DNA of 36,362 nt, taken from Bacteroidales bacterium (GTDB taxonomy: Bacteria; Bacteroidota; Bacteroidia; Bacteroidales; DTU049). The notes under the pieces are model-generated. The model was not told where the DNA came from, made no database searches, and was given only the letters and a program-made list of their open reading frames with translations. The DNA lies in NCBI GenBank assembly GCA_016937255.1, contig JAFGWG010000202.1, positions 1 to 36,362 of the forward strand, given 5' to 3'. The translations under genes and the position numbers were made by a program. This document shows positions 23,458-30,225 of this stretch, in pieces (the stretch's first letter is position 1; the number at the start of each line of letters is the position of its first letter).

Positions 23458-23567
23458 AGAGCAAAATAACGAAATTTTGTGGAGTGGGTGATGTAATTAT
23501 TGAAAATATTGCACCATTTAATGTGTATCCGTTTTTTTACTATTTTTACAAATTAAATTCTAATTAT

Positions 23568-24509
23568 ATGAACATCAAAGAATTTGGTAATTTCCTTATA
23601 GATGAAAATGCATGTATAGATCTTGTTCGTAAGGTAAAAGAGGATAAGGGAGTTGTTTGTCCGAAGTGCGGAAGCAAGGATCATTATTTCAATGTACGGT
23701 ATAGGTCGCACGATTGTAAAAAGTGCAGGTATAGAACTACTTTGAGAAGTGGTACTGTTATGGAAAGTAGTAAATTACCTTTTCATTATTGGATTACATC
23801 AATGTATTTTATGACATTGACAAAAAAGAGTTTTTCCGCTTTGGAGATGCAACGAATTTTAGGACACAAGCGGTATGAACCAATTTGGGCTATGATGCAT
23901 AAAATAAGAGCTTCAATTGGACAATTTGATGAGAAACAGATTCTTTTTGGTAATATTGAAATGGTTAGTTCGAAGATAATTACAATGACAAGGAAGTCAT
24001 TGGAGAGTGATCGTACACTGACCAAGCCAGGACAAAAAAAGGATATAAGAAAAGCAAGGGAAGTAGAATTGTTTATAAGCATTACACCTCCCCAAAAGCC
24101 AGTTTTAAAATCGCTTCGAAAAACGGCTTTTAAACACGTGTATGCTTTTGTAGTTCCTGAATTAGGGAAAAATGAATGCCTGGTTAAGTATGAAACAAAA
24201 GAAAAAGGGAAATTCCCAGATAAGGGATTAAGTACTTTCAGAACTATTAACAATAAAATGTCGATCATGCGACAGTTTCATCCTGTTGATTATGAGAAAG
24301 ATAAATTACATTGGGGCAGAACCTTGGTAAGTAATTTTCGCCGTGTGATTAATGGTATTCACCATAATATTTCTGAACAATATTTACAGAATTATCTAAA
24401 TGAGTTTAGTTTTAAAACCTCATCTCATAAAAAGGATCTTTTTAGTGAATTGCTTGCTATATGTATTGATACACAGTGGTATAATAGTTTTAGGTATGAA
24501 AACGGATAG
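23568..24509 (+). CDS. IS1595-type transposase-like protein with degenerate catalytic site
   Basis: 313 residues from the ATG at 23568; the reading from 23484 would add an unlikely segment. A zinc ribbon (Cys31, Cys34, Cys50, Cys53 in VCPKCG and DCKKCR) is followed by the IS1595/ISXO2 linker RTTLRSGTVMESSKLPFHYW and TKKSFSALEMQRILGHKRYE. The C-terminus, GIHHNISEQYLQNYLNEFSF, is also typical. Where active relatives have an (E/V)-D-E catalytic motif, this protein reads GNIEMVSSK (about 129-136), with no Asp. Where they have the second Asp block it reads LSTFRTINNKM (about 221-231). The frame is full length, without stops, and no convincing terminal inverted repeats flank it. It is probably a domesticated DNA-binding protein or a defective transposase; which one cannot be told from one sequence. 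Confidence 0.75.
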   Translation: MNIKEFGNFLIDENACIDLVRKVKEDKGVVCPKCGSKDHYFNVRYRSHDCKKCRYRTTLRSGTVMESSKLPFHYWITSMYFMTLTKKSFSALEMQRILGHKRYEPIWAMMHKIRASIGQFDEKQILFGNIEMVSSKIITMTRKSLESDRTLTKPGQKKDIRKAREVELFISITPPQKPVLKSLRKTAFKHVYAFVVPELGKNECLVKYETKEKGKFPDKGLSTFRTINNKMSIMRQFHPVDYEKDKLHWGRTLVSNFRRVINGIHHNISEQYLQNYLNEFSFKTSSHKKDLFSELLAICIDTQWYNSFRYENG

Positions 24510-24690: not shown

Positions 24691-27600
24691 TTGCCTGTCA
24701 TTCGAAATATATTCTTCGCAATGCAGCTTGCTTTTATATTTTTGGTAAGCCCGCAACTGCTTTATGCTCAATCTGATGTAGGCGATGACGAGCAGGTTAT
24801 TCAGGAAGCGGATAAACTTTTTCAGGCTGAAAAATATAATGAAGCCTACCCCTTATATTCTCAATTACTTAGTATTCATCGTAAAGACCCTTTTTATTCT
24901 TATCGTTTTGGCGTTTGTATGCTTTATTCCGATCGTAGAGATACAGAAAAACCTCTGCATTATATGGAATTAGGTGTTGGAAATTTGGAAGGAGAGGACG
25001 CCATAATGGTTTATTATTATTTGGGAGTAGCCTATCATCAAGCCTATCGATTTGGGGAGGCGATTAGAGCATTTACTACATTTAAGCTAAGAATCAATAG
25101 GAAAAATCCCTACTATAAAAAAACAGAAATACGCATGCAAATGTGTAATAATGGAATTGTATTGTTGAATGATATCAGCGATTTAATTGTTTTGAAGAAA
25201 TATGAAGTTGGCTATAGTAATTTTTTCCGGTCTTATGATCTGACACGTTTTGGCGGAAATCTAATTCCAAAACCCGAATTTTTGCAAAGTAAGCTTGATC
25301 GAAAATCAGACGAAATGCAACTTGTATTCTTTAGTGATACACATAGTGTTGTGTATTATAGTAGTTTAGGTGATAAAAAGAAAGACGCAAATAAGGATAT
25401 TTATCGTTCATATAAAAGGATTAATGGAACTTGGACCGAACCAGAAAAACTGAGTGCAACTATTAATACTCAATTCGACGAAGATTTCCCTTACTTGCTT
25501 CCCGATGGAAGAACATTGTATTTCTGCTCGAAAGGCCATAATAGTATGGGCGGCTACGATATTTTTCGTTCAGTATTTGATTCAATAAAAAATGATTGGT
25601 CAAGTCCCGAAAATATTGATTTTGCAATTAATACTCCCTTCGATGATATTCTTTTTATAACCGATCCAAGTCAGCGATATGCGTGGTTTTCATCATTTCG
25701 AAATAGCAACGACGGTCGAATTATGGTGTATTTGGTGCGTATCGACAAAAAGATTGAGGACATAGAGACGTTGAATACAGATATGATCGCTGCCAGTGAG
25801 ATTGACTACGATAATCCTGATTATCTGAAAACACTTGAAAAAATTCGCAGTAAAGCATCATTGGATGTGAATTCAAACGAGGAAATGCAAATTGACACGG
25901 TAGATCGAGATGCTTTAGCCAATGCACAAGATAATCTTAAATACAATTTGCCTGCTAATCCTACGGAAAATGATGTTATTGATATAACTTTTGGACATGT
26001 CAATTCAGCTGAGCAGGACATGCTTAATTTTAGAAAACTTCGCGATGAGTCGTTGAATATTGCAGATCGCAAAAAACGTGAAGCGGTAGCACAAAATCAA
26101 AGGAGCAGCGAATTATACGACCAGGCATTAAATACTACTGACCCAAATGAGCGGAAGAAGCTAATGGCAGAAGCTGTTGAACTTGCAAAAAGTAGTGAGA
26201 ATTTGATGGATGAATCGGATATCGCCATGCAAATGTATAATCAGTATGATCAAGCTGCAATAAATCAGGCAAAAGTAATGGAGACTATACAGGATAAAGC
26301 AGGTTATATTCAACAACTTGCAGAATCACAAAAACTTGATACCAGTGTGGTTCTTTTGAAAAGACTGATCGATGATATTGATACATTTAAAATAGAAATT
26401 GTAGAGGCGAAAAAACGCATTCAGGCAGATCAAGATTATGTAAGTGCAATGCAAAGTGATATTGCCCGTGCGGAAAAAGATATAATTGATAAAGAAAAGC
26501 AAGCCGGACGTTTAGATCAAGAAGCTGCACAGTATGAGAATGAAGCGGCTCTAAGTAATTACAACGAATTAAAACAGCAATATCTGGATGCAGCAGATTC
26601 GCTGAGAACTGAAGCCAGAAATTTACGAAATGAAGTGGCAAACACAAAGTCTCAGTTGGTTGATGATAAAGCGGCTTATAATGATTTACTGAATACTGTT
26701 GAAAGTAGACAAAATGTTAATAATGAAATACTTGCTGTAGTTGATAACAATGAACTCGCTGATAACAACAACTCAAACAACAATAATTCAAATGATAATA
26801 ATACGAATAACACAAATAATAATGACTCAAATAATACGAATAATGATATAAATAATAATAGCAATAACAACGATAATAACACAAACGATAACACTAATAA
26901 CGACTATAACAACAATACCAATAATGCTGATAATAACAATGCAAATAATGATACAAATTCAAATGGCAATAATGACAACAATGCAAATAACAATAATGTG
27001 AATAATCTGACCAATAATAACAATAGTAATGATAATACCAATAATCTAACGGCTGATAATCATCGCAATAATGTCGTGAACATGATTGATTCTAAAGTTG
27101 ATTCGTTAAACAATGAGCGCAACCGTCAGCAAAAGGAAAGTGATGCTTTGGCATTAATGTATGCTCAGAAGAATAGTTTGTATAATACACGTCTTAATGA
27201 CTGGAAAAATAAGCAAAACTTAGTTGGTAATAATCCAACTCAGCAGGATATTGATGACTTGAATACACTAGAATCAATTACCAAAGACCTTTATAATCAG
27301 CTTGATATTTTAAGTGATTTATATAGTGAATCTTTGAATAAACTGCAGAAAACTGATGCATTGATTTCTGAACTCACTGATTTGAGTAATGAAACTGGCA
27401 GTTTCCCTGCTTCTACAGATTCTTCTTTGGTTTATTCACAGCTTGATAAAAGCAATGAAAAGATTGCTAACCTTCGAAATGCCAACGAGAATACTTCATC
27501 ATTAGATATGATGACTATTGATGTACAAACTGCCATTAAAAATGAAGATGATCGTCTGGTAGAGCTTCAAAATGAGAAATTGGCTCTTGATAAGGAATTA

Positions 27601-30225
27601 GCCGAAATCGACGACAAAATTGAAAAGGCTCGGTCTGATGCAAAGAAAGAAAAACTTAGAAATGATAAACTGCCACTAGAGGTCAGAAAAAATGATTTAG
27701 TGAATCAGATAGTGGTTTTGGAATCGAATATTCTTAATTTGAATGATTCGTTGGCAGCCATCAAAGCAAAAAATCAGTACTATAATGAGTTTTCTGAATC
27801 AATAAATTCTATGTCTGACGAAAAACTGGCTGATATGTCTTCAAGTTGGGACCTTGTTGCCGATATGGGATCTGATGATGTTTTAAAAGGCCCGGAAAAG
27901 AATATTATGAATGACTTGGTCGCAATGAACAATAGTACCGGTAATAATATTGACAATAACTCCAATAACCACTCAAACAACAATACGAATAACAATTCCA
28001 ATAATGATAACAATGCCAACAATAATTCAAATAATGACTCGAACAATAATAATACTGCAAGTGTAGATAATAGTAATTCTAATGGTCCTGAATCTTGGTA
28101 TAATGAAAACACCAACATTAATGAATCTGGATACTCTGCGACTGAATTGTCTAATTATCAAGATCTTATTCAGTCTGAGTATTATAATAAAGGCGCAGAA
28201 AGTATAATGATTCGTATTGCTTCATTAAAAAAATTGCAGAAGCAAAATCCTGATCAAGCCGATGAAATTCAGCAGGAAATAGATGCACTTACGAGCACAA
28301 TGAAGGCATATATGGCTGAGTCTGATGCATATGCCCGTAATGCTGACAATAATTTGAATCTCAATAATATCGATAAGCCGGATACCATGCAGACTATTGC
28401 TCCGGGAGCCATGGCATCGTGGCATATGAATCAGTATGCCAATAAATTATTGAAATCGGATAGTCTTCGTCAACTGGCGCTAAATACCAATGATCCGAAT
28501 CTGAAGCAACAGTATAATGAGCAGTCACAGTTATACAACGATGCAGCCCGTATGCATTATCTGGCGGCAACCGATATTTATGGTATTTGGAGCAATTCAA
28601 GATATGAGAACAATAATGTGTTGATTGCTGAAAATCAGAATGATGGTACTTGGGTAATGACAGATGCTTCTCAGTTGATGATTGAAGCACGTCGTCTTCG
28701 TAGTGAGGCATTCAATGAAAATGATTTTGAAAAAAAGCAAAACCTTCTCAATCAGGCTCGTCAGCTTGAATTAAGGGCGCTTGATATGCAAGAGAAAACT
28801 CTGGCGGATGCTGGCATATATTCACCAGAAAAGATGATTACCATTGAAGCGATTCAGTTGGAAAATGATATGGCTATGAATCTTTCGGATCTGAGCGATG
28901 CCTACATGAACAATCGCAATATGCTCAATGATTATGGTAATGACGTTGCGATGAACAACAACGACAATACCAACAATACTAATACTAACGATAATACAAA
29001 CAACAACGACAATACCAACAATACTAATACTAACGATAATACAAACACCAACGACAATACCAATAATACCACCAACGACAATACCAATAATACCAACAAC
29101 GACAATACCAATAGTACCAACAACGACAATACGAATAATACCAATAACGACAATACCAATAATACCAATAACGACAATACGAATAATACCAATAACGACA
29201 ATAACAATAATACCAATAATACCAATAACGATAATGCGAATAATACAAATAATGATTCTAATACTAAGGCCCTTTATTACCGAGTACAGATTGCAGCCTC
29301 TCGGCGAACAGTAGATCCTGCACAATATTTTGGTAATCTTGATGAAGTAGTTGAAGATTTTGGTGACCCTTGGTATCGTTATTTGACAGGGTATTTTACG
29401 AGTTTCAATACTGCCTGGGCTGAGCGCAATAGAGTACGCCCGATTGGCTATCCTGATGCATTTGTCGTTGCGTATTATGATGGAAAGCGTGTTCCAGTAT
29501 ACGAAGCTAGAAGGCTTGAACAGGGCGGGGCAGTAGCCGACGAAAATGCAAATACCAATCCTATCGCAAATAATGGAAATAATGCGACAGCCACTGAGGA
29601 TAAATATGAAATGGCGGATGTTAATGGCTTGGTATATTCTGTGCAAGTTGGGGTTTATGCCACTACGAGAAATACTGAGCGATTATTTGGTATTAGTCCT
29701 TTGGTAGAAGAAATTATGGCCAATGGATATTACCGTTATTATGCGGGAGTTTATGGTGATTATAATCAGGCATTAACCGCTCGTAATCAGGTGCGTACAG
29801 CAGGTGTTCCCGATGCATTTGTGGTGATTCTCTATCAGGGTAAGAAGATTACACAGGCAGAAGCCAATCGATTGAATGGTGAAGGCGTTCAGTTTGGTGG
29901 ATCACTGGGACCGCAAAGCGAAAATTTGAGACCTGACAGAGAAAATGCAACCGACAATAAGCCTGTATTTATGGTACAAATTGGTGCTTTTGATAAAGAT
30001 GTAGCTCAGGCAGAAATTGATGCACTTATTGCCAGTGCAGGACAGGATGTTAGTACATATAAAGACCATGACAGAACCTTGTACACTGTAGGTTCATTTA
30101 GCGATTATAACTCAGCTTTGACATTGAAAAATGGTCTTGCCGAATCTTTCCCCGATGCTTTTATTATAGCATTCTTAAAAGGGGAGAAAATTCCGGTTGG
30201 AGATGCACGAAATATGACAGAATGA
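24691..30225 (+). CDS. Giant envelope protein: TPR, PD40-like propeller, coiled coils, Asn-rich linkers, three SPOR domains
   Basis: 1844 residues from TTG 24691, or 1834 from ATG 24721; the longer form puts an Arg before the hydrophobic signal (FIFLVSPQLLYAQ). In order: TPR-like helices (~30-150); a PD40-like propeller segment with FPYLLPDGRTLYFCSKG and MGGYDIF (~185-360); helical/coiled-coil region (~440-680); Asn-rich tract 1 (685-790); coiled coil (~793-1065); Asn tract 2 (1080-1131); helical region (~1140-1410); Asn tract 3 (1421-1525); and SPOR domains at ~1529-1611, 1648-1730 and 1758-1842 (YYRVQIAASRR, VYSVQVGVYAT, VFMVQIGAFDK). SPOR domains bind denuded peptidoglycan, so it should reach from the periplasm to the cell wall, perhaps at division sites. 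Asn/Asp/Thr linkers of this size are unusual in bacteria. Its stop overlaps the flavin reductase start (ATGA). Confidence 0.88.
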   Translation: MPVIRNIFFAMQLAFIFLVSPQLLYAQSDVGDDEQVIQEADKLFQAEKYNEAYPLYSQLLSIHRKDPFYSYRFGVCMLYSDRRDTEKPLHYMELGVGNLEGEDAIMVYYYLGVAYHQAYRFGEAIRAFTTFKLRINRKNPYYKKTEIRMQMCNNGIVLLNDISDLIVLKKYEVGYSNFFRSYDLTRFGGNLIPKPEFLQSKLDRKSDEMQLVFFSDTHSVVYYSSLGDKKKDANKDIYRSYKRINGTWTEPEKLSATINTQFDEDFPYLLPDGRTLYFCSKGHNSMGGYDIFRSVFDSIKNDWSSPENIDFAINTPFDDILFITDPSQRYAWFSSFRNSNDGRIMVYLVRIDKKIEDIETLNTDMIAASEIDYDNPDYLKTLEKIRSKASLDVNSNEEMQIDTVDRDALANAQDNLKYNLPANPTENDVIDITFGHVNSAEQDMLNFRKLRDESLNIADRKKREAVAQNQRSSELYDQALNTTDPNERKKLMAEAVELAKSSENLMDESDIAMQMYNQYDQAAINQAKVMETIQDKAGYIQQLAESQKLDTSVVLLKRLIDDIDTFKIEIVEAKKRIQADQDYVSAMQSDIARAEKDIIDKEKQAGRLDQEAAQYENEAALSNYNELKQQYLDAADSLRTEARNLRNEVANTKSQLVDDKAAYNDLLNTVESRQNVNNEILAVVDNNELADNNNSNNNNSNDNNTNNTNNNDSNNTNNDINNNSNNNDNNTNDNTNNDYNNNTNNADNNNANNDTNSNGNNDNNANNNNVNNLTNNNNSNDNTNNLTADNHRNNVVNMIDSKVDSLNNERNRQQKESDALALMYAQKNSLYNTRLNDWKNKQNLVGNNPTQQDIDDLNTLESITKDLYNQLDILSDLYSESLNKLQKTDALISELTDLSNETGSFPASTDSSLVYSQLDKSNEKIANLRNANENTSSLDMMTIDVQTAIKNEDDRLVELQNEKLALDKELAEIDDKIEKARSDAKKEKLRNDKLPLEVRKNDLVNQIVVLESNILNLNDSLAAIKAKNQYYNEFSESINSMSDEKLADMSSSWDLVADMGSDDVLKGPEKNIMNDLVAMNNSTGNNIDNNSNNHSNNNTNNNSNNDNNANNNSNNDSNNNNTASVDNSNSNGPESWYNENTNINESGYSATELSNYQDLIQSEYYNKGAESIMIRIASLKKLQKQNPDQADEIQQEIDALTSTMKAYMAESDAYARNADNNLNLNNIDKPDTMQTIAPGAMASWHMNQYANKLLKSDSLRQLALNTNDPNLKQQYNEQSQLYNDAARMHYLAATDIYGIWSNSRYENNNVLIAENQNDGTWVMTDASQLMIEARRLRSEAFNENDFEKKQNLLNQARQLELRALDMQEKTLADAGIYSPEKMITIEAIQLENDMAMNLSDLSDAYMNNRNMLNDYGNDVAMNNNDNTNNTNTNDNTNNNDNTNNTNTNDNTNTNDNTNNTTNDNTNNTNNDNTNSTNNDNTNNTNNDNTNNTNNDNTNNTNNDNNNNTNNTNNDNANNTNNDSNTKALYYRVQIAASRRTVDPAQYFGNLDEVVEDFGDPWYRYLTGYFTSFNTAWAERNRVRPIGYPDAFVVAYYDGKRVPVYEARRLEQGGAVADENANTNPIANNGNNATATEDKYEMADVNGLVYSVQVGVYATTRNTERLFGISPLVEEIMANGYYRYYAGVYGDYNQALTARNQVRTAGVPDAFVVILYQGKKITQAEANRLNGEGVQFGGSLGPQSENLRPDRENATDNKPVFMVQIGAFDKDVAQAEIDALIASAGQDVSTYKDHDRTLYTVGSFSDYNSALTLKNGLAESFPDAFIIAFLKGEKIPVGDARNMTE
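26743..27060 (+). repeat. Asn-rich low-complexity coding tract 1
   Basis: Codons 685-790 of the giant protein are mostly AAT/AAC with some Asp, Thr, Ser and Ala codons. The repeats are irregular, giving a long uncharged-polar linker between two coiled-coil regions. Confidence 0.85.
27928..28083 (+). repeat. Asn-rich low-complexity coding tract 2
   Basis: Codons 1080-1131: Asn with scattered Ser, Asp and Thr. It is shorter and less regular than the other two tracts and separates the second coiled coil from the next helical region. Confidence 0.85.
28951..29265 (+). repeat. Asn/Asp/Thr coding tract 3 with in-frame minisatellites
   Basis: Codons 1421-1525. A 45-bp unit occurs twice in perfect tandem (28954-28998 and 28999-29043), encoding NNNDNTNNTNTNDNT. 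It is followed by a 24-bp array: six consecutive units from 29068 to 29211 with few substitutions, a nine-base interruption, and one more unit at 29221-29244, mostly TNNDNTNN. Both periods are multiples of three, so copy-number changes keep the frame and only alter linker length. Confidence 0.9.

Follow-up and report, generated by a model that had tools for sequence, protein, structure and literature searches.

A family of giant SPOR-domain proteins with PorE-like heads and variable linkers in Bacteroidia

Our main finding is that the window, the stretch of 36,362 nucleotides of DNA analyzed here, carries a gene for a giant protein (the SPOR giant) whose family is real, widespread in Bacteroidia and apparently undescribed. 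We consider that this protein is probably exported and acts in the periplasm as a long-reach, multivalent tether between the envelope and the peptidoglycan, most plausibly at the division site. What was read directly is the architecture of the giant with its conserved order of blocks, the fold and the ligand residues of its SPORs, the variability of the linkers and the conserved gene cluster; the periplasmic location would follow from a signal peptide and from a search for a transmembrane stretch in the protein, in which none was found.

Results and discussion

A single intact gene

The giant begins with a signal peptide and a head in which a TPR array precedes a short PD40 propeller; a stalk made of three helical blocks and three Asn-rich linkers follows, and three SPOR domains form the C-terminus (Table 1). 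Its 1844 codons are uninterrupted and form a single intact gene, so that the long frame (about 1840 residues) and signal peptide seen in the initial annotation are real. That annotation had also raised the worry of a disrupted frame. An artefact of sequencing error appears unlikely from the sequences compared, since the architecture and the Asn-rich linkers recur in L057 (1828 aa) and G004 (1776 aa), both of them close relatives; G004 aligns with the window protein end to end, at 46% identity. The start codon is either TTG 24691 or ATG 24721, and both leave a signal that ends in ...LLYAQ before the following S. A sequence check found no lipobox Cys at this signal, the only Cys of the protein being at residues 76, 152 and 279 and none near residue 27. 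An antisense ORF lying over the third Asn tract (28822-29646) was set aside as a gene and read as a shadow of the repeat. Elsewhere in the window, tandem repeats of 40 and 48 bp lie near the contig end (35293-35433 and 36256-36362) and share the motif CCCGAAGGG.

Table 1. Features of the SPOR giant and of its gene surroundings (window coordinates, unless a contig or locus is named)
Feature	Coordinates	Strand	Evidence or remark
SPOR giant, 1844 aa	24691..30225	+	open frame; full-length relatives L057 and G004
Sec signal peptide	24691..24771	+	sequence; no Cys at cleavage site
TPR-type helical array, residues 30-161	24778..25173	+	AlphaFold2; TPR structures in profile/fold searches; weak Pfam TPR_2
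Short PD40 propeller-like domain, residues 164-355, motif SKGHNSMGGYDIF	25180..25755	+	Pfam PD40 5.7e-7; AlphaFold2
Helical block 1, residues 440-665, heptad-like	26008..26685	+	periodicity z 3.4 over 440-690
Asn-rich linker 1, residues 692-785	26764..27045	+	composition
Helical block 2, residues 805-1060, heptad-like	27103..27870	+	periodicity z 2.4 over 800-1060
Asn-rich linker 2, residues 1080-1131	27928..28083	+	composition
Helical block 3, residues 1150-1395, helical hairpins	28138..28875	+	AlphaFold2; 46% identical in relative G008
Asn-rich linker 3, residues 1422-1525, tandem ~24-bp units (NDNTNNTN)	28954..29265	+	TRF; disordered in AlphaFold2 model
SPOR 1, residues 1527-1607, keeps Q and R (WYRYLTG)	29269..29511	+	family HMM E 7.7e-24; AlphaFold2; FtsN alignment
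SPOR 2, residues 1646-1726, keeps Q and R (YYRYYAG)	29626..29868	+	family HMM E 2.9e-27; AlphaFold2; FtsN alignment
SPOR 3, residues 1758-1840, keeps Q, no Arg	29962..30210	+	Pfam 1759-1826; family HMM E 3.2e-19; AlphaFold2; FtsN alignment
IS1595-type transposase, directly upstream of the giant	23484..24509	+	Pfam DDE_Tnp_IS1595 2.1e-9
BIG1500 of the window genome	G000:C108:18318-22766 (L218:7292-11815)	-	conserved, secreted-looking
BIG1500 in a relative	L125:4403-8890		

Head, stalk and SPOR domains

The AlphaFold2 model of the head (mean pLDDT 88) is a TPR array followed by a short propeller, in which we count about 3-4 blades judging from the modelled strands. The head matches TPR structures in profile and fold searches; Pfam recognizes PD40 at residues 258-293 (E 5.7e-7), together with a weak TPR_2 match under its cut-off. 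These results back the TPR-like and PD40-like domains proposed initially. The family consensus has, after the propeller, a carboxypeptidase-regulatory-like (CRD-like) region that is seen in most relatives; Pfam calls it (PF13620) in 4 of 24 family members, and no CRD was recognisable by Pfam in the window protein. As for the two coiled-coil blocks described initially, the stalk contains three helical blocks, and it is indeed two of them, blocks 1 and 2, that show heptad periodicity (z 3.4 and 2.4, versus 0.8 for block 3).

The three C-terminal SPOR domains hold up well. SPOR (PF05036) is found by Pfam over two stretches of the window protein, with an E-value of 1.8e-13 and 51 bits against a cut-off of 21, and a family HMM finds all three copies; this HMM was seeded with the window protein's own domains, the independent support being Pfam and the fold. 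AlphaFold2 models three beta-alpha-beta-beta-alpha-beta domains at the C-terminus, which is the fold of solved SPORs. When Foldseek compared this part with known structures, the SPOR domain of CwlC (1x60) ranked first (E 0.02, prob 1.00, TM 0.69 by target). The ligand residues were located by alignment with what we take to be the E. coli FtsN sequence. At the position of FtsN Q251, the first and second SPORs of 56 family members all have Gln, and at that of R285 Arg is found in 50/56 first and 52/56 second copies, while the last SPOR keeps the Gln in 41/46 cases and has mostly Ile or Val at the Arg position. In SPOR structures, the Gln and the Arg contact the lactyl group bared by removal of the stem peptide, and in the bacteria studied the septum is where denuded glycan is enriched (PMC6895207). 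The proteins of the window genome include an amidase whose tail is SPOR-like and a protein (L225:1246-2265) in which a HU-like DNA-binding domain of the HU-CCDC81 type is joined to a SPOR domain. With both present, this organism probably produces denuded glycan and makes use of it.

A family widespread in Bacteroidia

Relatives were sought with a profile of the TPR head, containing neither the PD40 core nor SPOR, in a collection holding one genome per species. A scan of the genome contigs with the single sequence found nothing, and the TPR-head alignment succeeded: the profile scan gave 159 related stretches, 80 of which were kept. Among the 54 relatives whose ORF ends inside the contig, 51 have a head, a long stalk and two to four C-terminal SPORs, which is the conservation of block order that the initial annotation had expected of a true family; the other three have truncated frames (L056, with an assembly gap, L091, of 184 aa, and L126, of 502 aa). 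Seven further members brought the set to 58, with a median length of 2,045 aa. The SPORs number three in 44 of these members, two in 11 and four in 3, a count that rests on the family HMM, Pfam calling SPOR in only 19 of 24 members. The relatives are labelled Bacteroidales, Flavobacteriales, Crocinitomicaceae and Sphingobacteriaceae or belong to Chitinophaga-labelled bins, nearly all of them MAGs; one is labelled Dependentiae and was probably misbinned. Smaller forms (600-1,062 aa, with one to three SPORs) and SPOR-less forms (477-496 aa) occur in other families within the same order. NCBIfam has no model for the SPOR giant family and the open literature that we searched contained no paper describing it, so the early suggestion of an undescribed scaffold family seems to stand.

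Asn-rich linkers as spacers

All three Asn tracts of the initial annotation were recovered. Taken over the wider low-complexity segments, linkers 1, 2 and 3 contain 52%, 46% and 52% Asn, and the densest stretch has 21 Asn in 30 residues; elsewhere in the window genome, in proteins at three other contigs that match the Asn-run pattern, the maximum is 11 Asn in 30. Of the Asn codons, AAC accounts for 56/179 inside the tracts and 11/120 outside. This enrichment of AAC, together with the third tract being a tandem array of ~24 bp, points to growth of the tracts by DNA repeat expansion. An AT-rich genome was considered as the main cause of the Asn content and rejected, as GC explains little (Spearman -0.22, p 0.12 over 51 members). 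Counts of D-S/T-x, presumably the Bacteroidota O-glycosylation motif, showed no excess in the window protein (7, versus 7.1 in shuffles).

The tracts had been called prion-like, and the giant possibly self-assembling, with the Asn tracts as the driver of a scaffold. Tracts of 50-105 residues with about 50% Asn are unusual for the window genome and do qualify as N/Q-rich disordered segments, linker 3, the one tract that was modelled, being unstructured in the AlphaFold2 model (pLDDT mostly 25-40). However, the amyloid-propensity check proposed at the outset gave PAPA scores of -0.05, -0.03 and -0.09, all under the cut-off of 0.05 (scale values and cut-off being those we assume for PAPA), and Asp and Thr interrupt the Asn tracts. 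Moreover, only 15/58 members have a 30-residue window with at least 40% Asn; mapped on the head tree, this trait requires 10 changes or more, of which at least seven are forced by well-supported branches, and the nearby relative G001 lacks Asn tracts. A prion-like scaffold is thus very improbable, and neither term is supported.

Low-complexity segments as such lie between the head and the first SPOR in 37/58 members, often directly before SPOR 1. Their composition is Asn/Gln-rich in G004, Thr/Gln-rich in G038, Thr/Asn/Pro in L103, Pro/Ala in L061 and Ala/Pro in the GC-rich L106, and other members have T/Q-, T/P-, A/P- or S/T-rich linkers at similar positions. Since the linker positions stay similar while the composition changes, the Asn tracts look, at the level of sequence, like interchangeable spacers rather than prions. 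Linkers that keep their position while their amino acids turn over offer a natural test of spacer length versus spacer sequence.

Gene neighborhood and a second giant protein

In many genomes, the gene order is tpiA, prmA, BIG1500, plsY, SPOR giant, clpS and M48 peptidase. Upstream, where 6 kb or more of sequence was available (55 loci), we found plsY in 30, BIG1500 in 28, prmA in 26 and tpiA in 20; downstream, in loci with enough sequence, clpS was present in 23/54 and M48 in 13/51. In the window, the usual neighbor plsY was not seen beside the giant, which lies next to an IS1595 transposase; in the window genome, tpiA, prmA and BIG1500 are together on another contig (C108). The transposase may have helped to split the giant from its usual neighbors.

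BIG1500 is an uncharacterised protein of about 1,500 aa, with an N-terminal signal-like segment and a mean column identity of 48%, for which we found no match in Pfam, NCBIfam or PDB, a profile search against solved structures included. It was detected in 45/59 relatives. It occurs in 20/21 genomes with a SPOR-bearing TPR-PD40 member (G002, G028 and G037 resting on partial ORFs) versus 0/9 genomes with a SPOR-less one (seven checked by HMM, G030 and G036 judged by ORF length); the Fisher p of about 1e-6 overstates this co-occurrence, because the genomes are related and not phylogenetically independent. BIG1500 is also present in genomes with no clear family member. We regard it as the leading candidate for a partner of the giant's head. 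This cluster with a second giant protein was absent from the initial annotation, as were the PorE-type order of the head and the OmpA-bearing paralogues described below.

Relation to PorE and to other SPOR proteins

PorE (PG1058), the T9SS anchor of Porphyromonas gingivalis, has the order TPR-PD40-CRD with OmpA_C at the end (PMC7192894; PMC5053529). The giant shares the TPR array followed by a PD40 propeller, and most of its relatives also have the CRD-like region, which we did not find in the window protein; both types end in a peptidoglycan binder, SPORs in the giant taking the place of OmpA_C. Unlike PorE, the giant has no lipidation signal, its propeller is shorter, and its stalk, helical and disordered, adds ~1,100 residues. 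With FtsN, DamX, DedD and RlpA it shares the SPOR fold and the ligand Gln, plus the Arg of copies 1 and 2, but it differs from them by its 2-4 tandem SPORs, its TPR-propeller head, its several-fold larger size and the lack of a transmembrane anchor.

Three paralogues in the window genome share with the giant a PD40 head with TPR and/or CRD: C219 (PD40-CRD-OmpA, 679 aa), C221 (L219:1225-3555; TPR-PD40-OmpA-weak SPOR, 777 aa) and C183 (L220:786-3317; TPR-PD40-CRD-OmpA-weak SPOR, 843 aa). In contrast to the giant, OmpA is their main wall binder and they have no giant stalk; the weak SPORs of the last two are just under the Pfam cut-off and would give a single chain a second wall binder. A head homologous to that of the giant also occurs in short TPR-PD40 proteins (about 477-496 aa; G013, G032, G034, G041 and G052) from other families of the order, which have neither SPOR nor giant stalk and whose genomes lack BIG1500. 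Given the PorE-like order of the head and the OmpA-bearing paralogues in its own genome, the giant is best placed, from its domains, in a PorE-like superfamily, as a branch that ends in SPORs; it resembles a scaffold anchored to the wall but is distinct from PorE itself.

Proposed role and alternatives

We propose that the TPR and PD40 head, with the CRD-like region in most relatives, would dock on an outer-envelope partner, that the ~1,100 residues of helical blocks and disordered polar linkers would supply reach and slack, and that the C-terminal SPOR array, with two canonical copies and a diverged last one, would grip denuded glycan strands. With the head docked and the SPORs gripping such strands, the partner would be held where amidases have opened the wall, the division site being the most plausible place. 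The anatomy predicted from the sequence agrees with the tether, wall-binding SPORs and flexible spacers put forward initially. Counting against this reading are the Arg lost in the last SPOR, the lack of a recognisable CRD in the window protein, and the location of the giant and BIG1500 on different contigs in the window genome.

Two other roles deserve consideration. The PorE order of the head, the PorE-like OmpA paralogues, and the presence in the 3.85-Mb window genome of SprA and at least 150 T9SS cargo tails (TIGR04183) could indicate that the giant is a counterpart of PorE, fixing the translocon to peptidoglycan by SPORs instead of OmpA. We find this unlikely. SprA is present in 57/59 relatives, including genomes that have the short SPOR-less form only, so T9SS does not track the SPOR form, and its presence is uninformative as a predictor of the giant. 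Conversely, G019, a nominally complete genome, has no SprA and yet has a protein with a propeller and two SPORs (TPR not detected). Moreover, it is a separate PD40-CRD-OmpA protein (C219, L221) that shares a contig with SprA, and the giant lacks the lipidation signal of PorE. Still less probable is a general stiffener of the distance between outer membrane and wall, acting over the whole cell rather than at the septum: the great length of the giant would suit it, and TPR/PD40/OmpA relatives are common envelope proteins, but the SPOR ligand residues are conserved, denuded glycan is septum-enriched in the bacteria studied (PMC6895207), and the giant has neither a lipid anchor nor an OmpA domain.

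The envelope-to-peptidoglycan tether can be extended, speculatively and with rather low confidence, to a two-protein Bacteroidia system in which the giant and BIG1500 would couple constriction or construction of the outer envelope to the amidase-processed septal wall. If true, the two would do the job of Tol-Pal and FtsN-type proteins elsewhere. To our knowledge, little is understood of how dividing Bacteroidota attach their outer envelope to the wall, and the giant is a concrete, conserved candidate whose proposed ligand, denuded glycan, can be tested and which has a possible partner. More broadly, the family and its paralogues suggest that PorE-type heads have been joined to differing wall binders: OmpA, OmpA plus SPOR, or SPOR.
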